From Desulfovibrio sp. (GTDB taxonomy: Bacteria > Desulfobacterota > Desulfovibrionia > Desulfovibrionales > Desulfovibrionaceae), in contig JAITRF010000051.1 of assembly GCA_031288535.1 (NCBI GenBank), positions 1 to 37,910 of the forward strand: a stretch of 37,910 bases of DNA, in the 5' to 3' direction. The notes below the pieces were generated by a model. That model had not been told where the DNA came from and did not search any database. It worked only from the letters and a program-made list of their open reading frames with translations. The translations under genes and the position numbers were made by a program. Below, one piece after another: positions 1 to 26,489 of this stretch. Every line of letters starts with the position of its first letter. Position 1 is the first letter of the stretch.

Positions 1-140
1 TTTCAATGAGTTACTATCGAGGGGGTCCGGGGGAAATCATTATCGCTGCTGTCGTCATCCGTACGGCTCGAAACCTCGCCTACGGCTGACGCTCCCCCGG
101 CGGGGTTTGGGGCGGAGCCCCAATTAATCAGCCCTTCCTT
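1..140 (-). repeat. R1 long inverted repeat, left copy
   Basis: Read on the minus strand, this stretch matches 4296-4435 almost base for base over about 135 bp; only a few mismatches are visible. It holds a GC-rich palindromic core (CCCCGCCGGGGGAG type) and an AT-richer end. The copy reaches the window edge, so it may extend further left. Together with the right copy it brackets five genes. Confidence 0.9.
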
Positions 141-178
141 AAATACTCTAAAATGGAACGTTCTATTTGAAATCCGAA

Positions 179-3693: not shown

Positions 3694-4296
3694 ATGACCG
3701 TGCAGCACAGCAAGCGTTCCCTCGGCCCCGGCACCCTGTTGTATCCGGAGCCCGCACTTCTGGTTTGCGTCTGGGACGCCGACGGCAAAGCCAATACCAT
3801 GACCGCGGCCTGGGGCGGCATCTGCTGCTCCGAGCCTCCGTCTCTCGCCGTGTCCATACGTCCGGAGCGCTGGACCTACGCGGCGCTGCTCTCCCGCAAG
3901 GCTTTCACCGTGTGCATCCCCTCCGAGGCCATGCTTGCGGGCGCGGATTTTGTGGGCATGGCCTCCGGCAGACGCGTGGACAAGTTCGCCAGAGCGGGAT
4001 TCAGCGCGGAAAAGGCGGAGTTCGTGGACGCCCCCTATGTGGCCGAGTGCCCGGTAGTGCTGGAGTGCTCTCTTTCCGACAGCCTGGAGCTCGGCTCGCA
4101 TACTCTGATGATCGGCGTCATCCATGACGTGAAGGCCGATGCGGATTGTCTGGACGCAAGCGGCGAGTTTCCGGATATCGCCAAGGTCGCCCCGCTGATC
4201 TACGACGCCGGTTCCCGCGCCTATTACGGGGTGGGGCGCAAGCTGGGCGAGGCCTTTTCCATCGGCAAAAAGCTTTTGCGCCCGGAACAGGATTAG
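3694..4296 (+). CDS. Flavin reductase-like FMN-binding protein (flavoredoxin type)
   Basis: This 200-residue protein has the flavin reductase-like split-barrel FMN-binding pattern: PALLVCVWDADGKANTMTAAW near the N-terminus, GICCSEPPSLAVSIRPERWTY, then the KAFTVCIPSE strand and a late LIYDAGSRAYYGVG segment. This is close to flavoredoxins of sulfate reducers, which carry FMN and move electrons between reduced carriers and redox partners. It starts at ATG 3694 after a strong AAGGAG ribosome site (3682-3687). It stands alone: the right R1 repeat begins at its stop codon. Family call is firm; the electron partner is not shown by context. Confidence 0.85.
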   Translation: MTVQHSKRSLGPGTLLYPEPALLVCVWDADGKANTMTAAWGGICCSEPPSLAVSIRPERWTYAALLSRKAFTVCIPSEAMLAGADFVGMASGRRVDKFARAGFSAEKAEFVDAPYVAECPVVLECSLSDSLELGSHTLMIGVIHDVKADADCLDASGEFPDIAKVAPLIYDAGSRAYYGVGRKLGEAFSIGKKLLRPEQD

Positions 4297-4435
4297 GGAA
4301 GGACTGATTAATTGGGACTCCGCCCCAAACCCCGCCGGGGGAGCGTCAGCCGTAGGCGAGGTTTCGAGCCGTACGGATGACGACAGCAGCGATAATGATT
4401 TACCCCGGACCCCCTCGATAGTAACTCATTGAAAT
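4296..4435 (+). repeat. R1 long inverted repeat, right copy
   Basis: Near-identical reverse complement of 1-140, running from the flavin reductase stop codon to CTCATTGAAA. Differences are single bases (for example TTACCCC here versus TTCCCCC). The pair encloses the WcbI-like gene through the flavin reductase and could recombine to invert that block. Read as protein, R1 simply adds low-value tails to neighbouring frames and encodes nothing recognisable. Confidence 0.9.
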
Positions 4436-4490
4436 ATATCTTGGGAGTACAGAGGGCAAAGCCATCTCAAAAATAAATCAGTGCTTCCTT

Positions 4491-4566
4491 GGAGCAATTT
4501 CACTTTTAAATTGCTCTGGCGGCCGCGCGAGCGGACGCCCGCCGTCAAGCGACAATCTCAAGCGCA
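4491..4566 (+). repeat. R2 element, partial copy
   Basis: Carries the AT hairpin GAGCAATTT...AAATTGCTC, the GCGGCCGCGCGAGCGGACGC core and the CAATCTCAAGCGCA end of R2. The other inverted end is missing or decayed. It is opposite in orientation to the copy at 2313-2409. Confidence 0.75.
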
Positions 4567-4611
4567 AAATGCTATAAACGGTGCCGCCTTGAAACTATAA
4601 AAATTGCCTCC

Positions 4612-4751
4612 GCCCGGATTATACCGCGCGGAGCAATCGAGTGAATAGCCGTAACCTGCTGAAATTATTTACTGCGGGAGACCGGGAGGAGAAGGCTTTC
4701 TTCTGTAATTTCAATATGTTATAAGGCTCATTCGATTGCCCGGATTATACC
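4612..4751. repeat. R4 MITE-like element (copy 1) with flanking direct repeats
   Basis: The element proper is 4634-4738 (105 bp). Its ends CAATCGAGTGA and TCATTCGATTG are imperfect inverted repeats, and an inner stem TGAAATTA (4660-4667) / TAATTTCA (4706-4713) is perfectly paired. The 14-bp sequence GCCCGGATTATACC occurs immediately on both sides (4612-4625 and 4738-4751), and the match continues as GCGGAG after two differing bases. That looks like a target duplication. The second copy is at 13672-13778 in the same orientation. Confidence 0.65.
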
Positions 4752-4868
4752 CTGCGGAGGGCTGGTCAGGGCGGCGGGCTATGTGATAGGTTCGGGTCAC
4801 TAAGGCGGACGCCGTATTGTGGTGCGTTCGGCGCATGAGTGCCGGTTACGGTGCAGGAGGTGGACAAA

Positions 4869-11729: not shown

Positions 11730-11734
11730 GGCCA

Positions 11735-11770
11735 GGGCTGGCGCATCTAAATTCTATATTGTTAATTCAG
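11735..11770 (+). repeat. R3 repeat, truncated copy before waaA
   Basis: The sequence around GCGCATCTAAATTCTATATT (11741-11760) followed by GTTAATTCAG matches the head of R3 at 26167-26201 and, reversed, 13499-13532. The hairpin-bearing tail of R3 is missing. The fragment ends a few bases before the waaA start codons and leaves that gene without an obvious ribosome-binding site. Confidence 0.7.
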
Positions 11771-11776
11771 TATGTG

Positions 11777-13309
11777 ATGAATGCCTGCATGGAATTGTTT
11801 TTCCGCGTCTATGCGGTTCTGTGGAGGGGCGCGGCCCTGTTTTTGTGCGGGCATGAACGCCTGAAAGACAGTTTCGGGCGGCGCGCCGTTTTGGAAAACG
11901 GACCCTTCGCCGCTTTTGGGGCGGACCCTCGCCCGCGGACAGGTCCGGATGCGGGGCCGGACGCGGCGGACAAGGACCGGCAACGCGCCTTGACCGGGGC
12001 GGCCCCGGTGCGCCTGTGGATTCAGGCCGCCTCGGCGGGTGAGGCGAAACTGTGCCGGGCCTTTGTCCCGGCGCTGCATGCGGCCTTTGCCGCGCATCCC
12101 GGCTTCGCCGCCCGACCGCTGCGCCTGCTTTGCACCAGCCTCACCCCACAGGGCCTCGAAACCCTGGAAGAAGCGAAAAAAACCTTTCCCCCGGACCTGC
12201 GCTGCCTGTGCGGCTATCTCCCCCTGGACCGACCGGATCTGATGCGCGCCGCCGTGCGCCTCGCCCGGCCCCAGGCGCTGATCCTGCTGGAGACGGAGCT
12301 TTGGCCCGGCCTGATGCGGGCGGCAAAGCTCGAGGGCGTGCCGTTGATAGTGGCGAACGGGCGCATGTCGGAAAAAAGCTTTCGCTTCTATGGCCCGTCC
12401 CGGTTTTTCTGGAAAAATCTGGCCCCGGATCGCGTAGCCGCCGTGTCGGAAAAGGACGCCGCGCGCTACGCCGCGCTTTTCGGCTCTCCGGAGAAGGTTG
12501 AGACCATGTCCAACGTCAAGTTCGACCTCTTGCGCCAGGACGCGCCGGGCCGTCCGGGGACGGAAGCGGTCCTGCGTCTGCGCGCGGAGCTTGGCGCGGA
12601 CGAAGCCGACCTGCTTGTCCTTCTGGCCTCGGTGCGGGAAGAGGAGGAAGACCTGCTTCTGCCGGGGCTTTGCGCTTTTTGCGGAAAAAAAATCCGCGGG
12701 AGGGGTCTGGTCGTGGCCGTGGCCCCAAGGCACATGCACCGCATCGCGGCCTGGGAGGAGAAACTGCGGGCTTGCGGGGCGGCTTTTTTCCTGCGCCGGA
12801 CGCCAGGGGAAGGCGGGGCGGTTGGAGCGCGGGCGTCTGTTACGGGCGCGCGGGCGGACGGGAGCCGGATCTGCCTGTGCGCGAAATTCGGCGAACTGCC
12901 GGAGCTTTATGCGGCCGCCGACGCCGTTTTTGTCGGGGGCAGCCTTGCCCCGCTCGGCGGGCAGAATTTTTTGGAGGCCGCGGCTTGCGGCGCGGTACCC
13001 TTGGTCGGCCCGCATCTGGACAATTTTCTTTGGGCCGGGGCGGATGTTTTCGCTGCGGGACTGGCGCGTAAAATTTCCGGAGCGGCCGGGCTTTTCGAGG
13101 CCCTGGCGCGGGATTTGGAAGAACGCGCCGCCCTGCTTGATCTGGCAGGGGCCGGGGCGGAGACTGACGCCCGCGCCGGGGCGTCGGGGGAAATACAGGC
13201 GCATTTTCAGGCCCTGCTGGCCCCGAAACTGGGCGGAAGCTCCAGGGCCGCGCGGATTGTTCTGGAGGCCGTGACCGCCGGCGCCACGCCGTCCGCCGGA
13301 ACGTCATGA
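11777..13309 (+). CDS. waaA: 3-deoxy-D-manno-octulosonic acid (Kdo) transferase
   Basis: This roughly 510-residue membrane-associated glycosyltransferase adds Kdo from CMP-Kdo to lipid A precursors. Family signs are the N-terminal hydrophobic anchor (MELFFRVYAVLWRGAALFLC), the catalytic-Glu motif WIQAASAGEAKL, LLETELWPGLMRAA, NGRMSEKSF, SNVKFDL, and the sugar-nucleotide motif GGSLAPLGGQNFLEAAACG. It is longer than the usual ~425 residues because of low-complexity inserts near residues 40-75 and 350-365. Start choice is uncertain: ATG 11777, GTG 11774 and ATG 11789 are in frame and none has a clear ribosome site. The frame remains open upstream into lepB. The 11789 start fits the family N-terminus best; 11777 is used here. 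Confidence 0.9.
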   Translation: MNACMELFFRVYAVLWRGAALFLCGHERLKDSFGRRAVLENGPFAAFGADPRPRTGPDAGPDAADKDRQRALTGAAPVRLWIQAASAGEAKLCRAFVPALHAAFAAHPGFAARPLRLLCTSLTPQGLETLEEAKKTFPPDLRCLCGYLPLDRPDLMRAAVRLARPQALILLETELWPGLMRAAKLEGVPLIVANGRMSEKSFRFYGPSRFFWKNLAPDRVAAVSEKDAARYAALFGSPEKVETMSNVKFDLLRQDAPGRPGTEAVLRLRAELGADEADLLVLLASVREEEEDLLLPGLCAFCGKKIRGRGLVVAVAPRHMHRIAAWEEKLRACGAAFFLRRTPGEGGAVGARASVTGARADGSRICLCAKFGELPELYAAADAVFVGGSLAPLGGQNFLEAAACGAVPLVGPHLDNFLWAGADVFAAGLARKISGAAGLFEALARDLEERAALLDLAGAGAETDARAGASGEIQAHFQALLAPKLGGSSRAARIVLEAVTAGATPSAGTS

Positions 13310-13370
13310 CGCCGGGAGCCCGGCGAAGCCGGGTCCGCCGCCGCCTCTCCCTACGGACGTCGGTTGCCCG

Positions 13371-13420
13371 GGACTGACGCATCTTATTGCGTCAGTCCTG
13401 CGACGATGCGCAAGCATCGT
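13371..13420 (+). terminator. Two adjacent hairpins downstream of waaA
   Basis: Hairpin one has 11-bp arms: GGACTGACGCA (13371-13381) and TGCGTCAGTCC (13388-13398) around a six-base loop. Hairpin two is ACGATGC-GCAA-GCATCGT (13403-13420), a seven-base stem with a GNRA-type GCAA loop. They directly precede the R3 copy, which adds two more. No T-run follows, so a factor-independent terminator is not certain; an RNA-stability or protein-binding role is possible. Confidence 0.5.
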
Positions 13421-13421
13421 C

Positions 13422-13532
13422 CGAAGCCGCAGGCTTCGTAAGGAGCAAGGCGGCTTTGCCGCCGCCGCGAATCTCAAAGACATATATAATAATATTGTGA
13501 ATTAACAACATAAAATTTAGATGCGTCAGCCC
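13422..13532 (-). repeat. R3 hairpin-bearing repeat, reversed copy
   Basis: This is the reverse complement of 26167-26278, with small differences. It holds CGAAGCC-GCA-GGCTTCG (13422-13438) and GGCGGC-TTT-GCCGCC (13449-13463), then an AT-rich block ending ATGCGTCAGCCC. With the two hairpins just upstream, four stable stems lie within about 93 bp. The 547-bp stretch from 13310 to 13856 has no credible gene. Confidence 0.8.
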
Positions 13533-13659
13533 TGCCGGTTACCTTTTGCCGGTTGCCTTTCATCTGAAGTTCCTTTATGGTTCAAACCCGCTCCCTTCAG
13601 GGAGATTTCCGCTTGACGCCCGGTTTTGCCGACATGCCGTCCCGACCCGTTCCTCAGGA

Positions 13660-13795
13660 GAGGAGGCAGGGCAATCGTATGAATGAATATAACCTACTGA
13701 AATTATTCACTGCGAGTGACCAACCCGTGAAAATTTTCTCCTGTAATTTCAAGGCATTGTAACACTCTCATTCGATTACTCTGGGGGAGGAGGCA
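13660..13795. repeat. R4 MITE-like element (copy 2) with flanking direct repeats
   Basis: The element is 13672-13778 (107 bp). It matches 4634-4738 in the same orientation: inverted ends CAATCG and TCATTCGATTA, inner stem TGAAATTA (13698-13705) / TAATTTCA (13744-13751), and a variable apical part, here with the palindrome GAAAATTTTC. The 9-bp sequence GAGGAGGCA occurs on both sides (13660-13668 and 13787-13795), a spacing of 127 bp versus 126 bp for the repeats around copy 1. The element ends about 78 bp before tolC. Confidence 0.6.
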
Positions 13796-23992: not shown

Positions 23993-24026
23993 GCGCGTTT
24001 CCTGGCGCAAATTTCCACAATGCGCC

Positions 24027-24096
24027 GGAGCAATTTCACTTTGAAATTGCTCCGGCGGCCGCGCGAGCGGACGCCCGCCGCGAAGGCTCAAGCGCA
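24027..24096 (+). repeat. R2 element, partial copy with a perfect 12-bp hairpin
   Basis: The element starts with two perfect 12-bp arms, GGAGCAATTTCA / TGAAATTGCTCC, around CTT (24027-24053). The GCGGCCGCGCGAGCGGACGC core and the CTCAAGCGCA end of R2 follow. It fills the gap between the convergent glnS and heptosyltransferase genes, where a two-way transcription stop would be useful. No T-run is present on either side. Confidence 0.75.
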
Positions 24097-24110
24097 ATTT
24101 ATTTGCGCGG

Positions 24111-26062: not shown

Positions 26063-26166
26063 CCCGCAATCCTTCTCCGCGCGGCTCAAAACCGCAATTT
26101 CGCCTTTTTATCCCGCCAATGTATCCATATGCCCGAATATGTCAATACGCCTGCGGCGATGCGACT

Positions 26167-26278
26167 GGGCTGACGCATCTAAATTTTATATTGTTAATTC
26201 AGGATATTATGATATATATCTTTGAGATTCTCGGCGGCGGCAAAGCCGCCTTGCTCCTTACGAAGCCGCAGGCTTCGA
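26167..26278 (+). repeat. R3 hairpin-bearing repeat, forward copy
   Basis: It begins GGGCTGACGCATCTAAAT, runs through an AT-rich block to ATCTTTGAGATTC, and ends with two hairpins, GGCGGC-AAA-GCCGCC and CGAAGCC-GCA-GGCTTCG. It is the reverse complement of 13422-13532. It lies in the 427-bp gene-free interval 26063-26489 between the divergent metF and the glycosidase gene; the rest of that interval has no recognised feature. Confidence 0.8.
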
Positions 26279-26489
26279 GCAGGCGGGCGGCGCCGGGACG
26301 CGGGCGAAAATGCGTCTTTCGTCCGTACCCGCGATATATATCTTGAACTTATTGAATCCCAAAGATAAAATAAACACAGGCAGCGCCCGGCGAACGGCGG
26401 CGCAAGAGGACGGCGAAACTTCAAGGCCGGCGCGGGCAACCGGGCGACGGAAAATTTTGTTCACGCGGACTTTGCGAAAGGACGAGGGA

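Follow-up and report, generated by a model that had tools for sequence, protein, structure and literature searches.

A palindrome lying between direct repeats in a 37,910-nt stretch of Desulfovibrio sp. DNA (hereafter the window) raises the question of whether it was inserted there and, if so, by what. Here we describe it as, judging from sequence comparison, an ISAs1-family MITE that is gene-free and constitutes a new family within a well-known kind of element. It is very probably a non-autonomous MITE of ~115 bp that has been mobilized in trans by an ISAs1-family transposase, with a 10-bp target duplication.

The first-pass annotation had placed a 105-bp element, with paired ends and an inner stem, between two copies of GCCCGGATTATACC. 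This direct repeat indeed occurs at 4612–4625 and again at 4738–4751; tandem and low-complexity coding repeats aside, no other exact 14-mer in the window recurs within 150 bp. The paired ends and the inner stem are present and the core is real, but the 105-bp limits are too narrow, the ends lying a few bases further out. A nucleotide search of the source genome (G000; 2.83 Mb, 153 contigs) with the flagged copy (copy 1) returned a second copy in the window (copy 2) and eight more on other contigs, giving ten MITE copies of 112–117 bp at unrelated sites. When the ten were aligned with 60 bp of flank, similarity stopped at ends reading CAGGGCAATCGARTGA..., slightly outside the 105-bp core. Multi-copy comparison gives the family ends as CAGGGCAATCGARTGAA, and the terminal inverted repeats, 16–17 bp long, read CAGGGCAATCGAATGAA at both ends. 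Copies 1 and 2 share ~71% identity over 102 bp, and copy 2 spans 13667–13783 rather than the 13672–13778 given originally. The features are as follows.

4618–4628, no strand: copy 1 left target duplication, ATTATACCGCG; 9/11 identical with 4744–4754
4629–4743, + strand: ISAs1-type MITE copy 1, 115 bp, ends CGGAGCAATCGAGTGA / TCATTCGATTGCCCGG; from alignment with nine other source-genome copies and copies of other genomes
4652–4665, + strand: copy 1 inner inverted motif, left arm, TAACCTGCTGAAAT; TAA and TGAAA invariant in 20/20 aligned copies
4708–4721, − strand: copy 1 inner inverted motif, right arm, ATTTCAATATGTTA (+ strand letters); ATTTCA invariant in 20/20
4744–4754, no strand: copy 1 right target duplication, ATTATACCCTG; 9/11 identical with 4618–4628
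13657–13666, no strand: copy 2 left target duplication, GGAGAGGAGG; 9/10 identical with 13784–13793
13667–13783, + strand: ISAs1-type MITE copy 2, 117 bp, ends CAGGGCAATCGTATGA / TCATTCGATTACTCTG
13784–13793, no strand: copy 2 right target duplication, GGGGAGGAGG; pairs with 13657–13666

Both window copies are intergenic; a methyl-accepting chemotaxis gene and a tolC-like gene lie downstream of them. The terminal-repeat pattern, with two or fewer mismatches, matched the source genome 23 times versus 0 for a reversed control pattern, and an exact search with the internal motif returned solely the two window copies; the family numbers at least ten copies in this genome. The element is short, has no transposase gene, is dispersed in many copies (ten here) and carries terminal repeats and duplications, and the label MITE that it had been given at first sight is borne out. 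Separately, promoter and terminator scans returned one promoter-like match spanning the left end of copy 1, a consensus match only, with TTCACT inside the element end and TATAAT inside the target duplication.

The flanks carry the signature of insertion. Flank matching peaks sharply at 10 bp, the normal length of the target duplication. At least 7 of 10 flank bases are identical in 17 of 28 copies from the source and related genomes, a level reached by 3 of 756 mismatched pairings (left flank against the right flank of other copies) and by a maximum of 6 of 28 copies in 20,000 flank shuffles. The duplication thus has a constant length, 10 bp, as bacterial MITEs do. For copy 1, 11 bp is a better fit than 10. 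Here the 14-bp repeat had been taken as the duplication; ATTATACC plus a few bases does belong to it, whereas the first six bases of the right-hand repeat (GCCCGG) are element end, and the left-hand GCGGAG, read as an extension of the repeat, is mostly element end too. The repeat appears longer because GCCCGG left of the target and CGGAG right of it equal the opposite element ends, in slightly mutated form, a likeness that may be due to chance or to one repeat having been copied locally onto the other. At copy 2, the 9-mer direct repeat reported earlier marks a real duplication (9/10), but two of its bases are part of the element. Most of the ten source-genome copies have 10-bp flanking repeats, the one on contig C60 showing CGGCAACTAT at both flanks. 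Duplications in the related genome G126 and the matching Kf353_bin37 records read AGCATTTCAG, GCCAAAATCG, CTGAAACAGC, ATCTTTTGCC and TTGTGCGGTG, and in G118 a related element of 203 bp, identical in its ends, is flanked by a perfect duplication of 10 bp, CTACCTGAAA. In the flank comparison, some copies (for example, L007, L009, L063 and L083) have no recognizable 10-bp duplication.

Presence and absence between relatives point the same way. In genome G131 an amidohydrolase-like gene is preceded by a copy with a 9/10 duplication; the G125 sequence aligns to either side of that insertion point but lacks the element, an empty site that provides the orthologous absence characteristic of bacterial MITEs. 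This filled and empty pair is of the kind first sought in related strains; for the source-genome copies no base-exact empty site was found, as divergence of the intergenic flanks reaches the insertion point, although the element is missing from the loci examined in G124, the nearest relative. The MITE was not found at the two window loci in any congener with the interval assembled, and the flanks there are diverged: 453 bp of unrelated sequence replaces window 4296–4830 in G124, and in G123, G125, G126 and G128 the genes on either side of copy 2 are separated by just a short spacer. Ten copies at unrelated sites, the excess of 10-bp duplications, the filled and empty pair and the orthologous absence together support the original proposal of insertion with target duplication.

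The likely mover became apparent in the congeners G124 and G127, in which several contigs end ~118 bp inside a multi-copy element with exactly the ends of the MITE, as expected because identical multi-copy elements break short-read assembly. An ISAs1-type transposase begins at one end of this element (MAERLSIAIIEHFEDMPDPRQQAKVLYPL...), and one terminates at the opposite end (...KSMRVRRKRAGWDDEFLASALAAEVS). A congener fragment with a near-identical N terminus matches Pfam PF13808 (DDE_Tnp_1_assoc; 65 bits), and the nearest annotated plasmid relatives belong to the ISAs1 family, ISAzs15 first (Azospirillum, annotated ISAs1-like; 53% identity over the N-terminal 66 aa). ISAzs15 has ends CAGGGCAATCGCTTGAA, or CAGGGCAATCGCTTGAAGC from base-by-base comparison of two copies, each of which has a perfect 10-bp duplication (ACGTTCCTGA; GCCGGTCACG); in Tistrella, two copies of an ISAs1 relative show the same pattern of ends and likewise perfect duplications of 10 bp (TATGCAGGGG; CGGGCATGGG). 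The MITE ends are therefore identical to those in G124 and G127 and have CAGGGCAATCG in common with ISAzs15, and its duplication length is that of four ISAs1 copies from two species, all perfect at 10 bp, so that both properties match ISAs1 elements of another bacterial class. Because the congener elements and ISAzs15 have such ends, the palindrome is best assigned to the ISAs1-family MITEs and not to ERIC; the earlier description as ERIC-like fails as a statement of membership, the window having no Rfam match and the ends being those of an ISAs1-family insertion sequence (IS).

IS4-family members make duplications of similar length (~9–11 bp), and a mover from that or some other such transposase family would account for the length observed. 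We consider this scarcely credible, given that ISAs1-type proteins are encoded by the congener multi-copy elements that share the 16-bp ends and that ISAs1 relatives of another class have the same first 11 bases, CAGGGCAATCG. Copies, ends in common with ISAs1 ISs, 10-bp duplications and differences in presence between relatives were all observed; movement in trans by an ISAs1 transposase is what we infer. Such a transposase, binding in trans, would recognize the CAGGGCAATCGAATGAA terminal repeats (17-bp ends) and insert the MITE at a staggered target site, which would yield the 10-bp duplication.

Its present source would be an IS that is lost, unassembled or horizontally acquired. No transposase with exactly the ends of the MITE was found in the source draft genome, no full-length cognate IS lay within one contig in the congeners examined, and none of the ISAs1 genes found by PF13808 in the source genome, G120 and G121 had cognate ends. 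Traces of the cognate in the source genome are fragments ending in the C-terminal end of an ISAs1 transposase, and the sole intact ISAs1 element there differs in its inner end bases (CAGGGCAGACGCATCTAAA). A candidate autonomous partner, L075, was rejected as an IS5-type fragment beside terminal-repeat sequence. The window copies are old: most source-genome copies have 70–78% identity to copy 1, and the duplications show decay. Their mobility has probably been lost, and they are possibly relics, as no cognate gene, just the C-terminal-end fragments, was found in their genome. As a separate observation, L038 and L043 (source contigs C105 and C150) and L065, L074 and L080 (relatives) are one-ended ~150-bp fragments with the ISAs1 C-terminal end that lose similarity at nearly one common point, just past ATTTCAGTAAGTTATG.

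An alternative is that the palindrome arose from the lineage's ISAs1 IS by decay and internal deletion, with no MITE family amplified in its own right. In its favour, G282 contains a 452-bp deletion derivative of the IS, with both ends intact and both gene termini kept, and the transposase-derived fragments L038 and L043 have TAAC-N4-TGAAAT in their 3′ part as well. The interior of the palindrome, however, has no obvious IS similarity beyond the ends and this short motif, and the uniform length of 112–117 bp, with inner motifs common to many copies and genomes, indicates amplification as a unit. We regard simple decay as improbable; it is in any case a question of origin and no competitor to the MITE reading.

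Other repeats occur alongside the MITE. A second family with ISAs1-like ends CAGGGCTGACGCATCTAAA, ~166 bp long, lies at 13369–13534, and also at 26165–26280 and 11733–11780, and the source genome has about 28 more copies at 87–94% identity; one copy of this family shares an intergenic region with MITE copy 2 and lies next to it. Its likely mobilizer is the intact ISAs1 element of the source genome (L113 570–1721, contig C90; 1,152 bp, a 368-aa open frame and perfect 19-bp ends), because the ends of the two are nearly identical. Window 1–142 and 4293–4434 are inverted copies, 142 bp long and 97% complementary, of a GC-rich intergenic repeat that occurs more than 20 times in the source genome, several times at contig ends. 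REP-like palindromes, GGAGCAATTTCACTTTGAAATTGCTC then GGCGGCCGCGCGAGCGGACGCCCGCCG, lie at 2303–2391, 4489–4577 and 24023–24097 and are abundant in congeners too.

We then return to the hairpin itself, using an alignment of twenty distinct copies from several genomes and more than one genus (117 columns). Hardly any change occurs in the inner inverted motif, TAAC-N4-TTGAAAT ... ATTTCAA, and the loop of ~40 bp shows little conservation across subfamilies. One rival reading takes the palindrome for a structured RNA, or for a regulatory repeat between genes of the ERIC or REP type, that is retained because of its hairpin, the flanking repeats being incidental. It would fit the inner stem that is invariant in 20 copies, the intergenic positions and the fold of the copy 1 + strand, which is 3.6 SD below dinucleotide-shuffled sequence (z −3.6). 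Copy 2, however, folds no better than shuffles (z −0.5), cmscan of the window found no Rfam match, and the 10-bp duplications and the ends shared with ISAs1 would be left unexplained. RNAalifold on the twenty copies found the nested stems, but with a covariation term of merely −0.38 kcal/mol; 3 of 24 pairs are changed on both sides, two of them inside the terminal repeats. Given this term and so little two-sided change, we rejected covariation as evidence for RNA, and the compensatory stem changes that the first-pass annotation proposed to look for are almost absent, so that what is conserved in the stems is their sequence and not an RNA fold. An RNA or regulatory repeat is thus very unlikely. 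Under the MITE reading, the terminal stems are accounted for by transposase recognition, and we read the inner motif as a sequence-conserved site. A tentative further idea, more doubtful than not, is that TAAC-N4-TTGAAAT / ATTTCAA-N4-(G/A)TT(G/A) is a second functional site pair selected in the MITE, which might serve as a subterminal site for the transposase or a host factor, or as a hairpin that aids mobilization. If true, this would explain why the 115-bp layout recurs across more than one genus while the loop drifts.

The family extends beyond the source genome. At least one end-like match is present in 38 of 288 genomes, and 12 of 44 genera, of the bacterial family, a count that includes some single matches representing chance or decayed ends, and the control pattern gave almost none. 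Among 84,980 species searched, a gapped exact two-end pattern matched six contigs from two metagenome-assembled Desulfovibrio genomes, one of which, Kf353_bin37, belongs to a sample with a sibling bin described as originating in the termite Kalotermes flavicollis (PMC11707648). Separately, contig C1 of G042 has eight end-like matches over 3.7 Mb, all on the same strand, with the second end absent at that stringency. For the intergenic palindromes that recur across Desulfovibrionaceae genomes, of which one or more have a termite-gut origin, a family and a putative mechanism can now be given, and the end sequences and duplication length can be used to annotate them. ISAs1-family elements, rarely discussed as drivers of MITEs, would thus have spawned short families in Desulfovibrionaceae.

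The open-access literature searched contained no account of a MITE linked to the ends of ISAs1-family elements. The closest known elements, ISAzs15 and its relatives (Azospirillum sp. B510 and Tistrella mobilis), resemble the MITE in the first 11 bases, CAGGGCAATCG, an inner TGAA and the 10-bp duplication; ISAzs15 differs in being 1,263 bp long with a gene, against 115 bp without one, and in having CT at two inner end bases where the MITE has AA. The ERIC elements of enterobacteria (reviewed in PMC10969869) are alike in approximate size, imperfect palindrome and intergenic position, but have different ends and belong to another bacterial lineage, whereas the MITE has a clear 10-bp duplication and a known type of IS partner; ERIC was set apart through Rfam and the ends. 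In kind, the element resembles IS-mobilized bacterial MITEs such as MITEPye1, which is paired with IS1182 (PMC11578231): both are short, intergenic and hairpin-prone, with no transposase gene, IS-like terminal repeats and direct repeats, and they differ in the IS family involved, IS1182 there and ISAs1 here.
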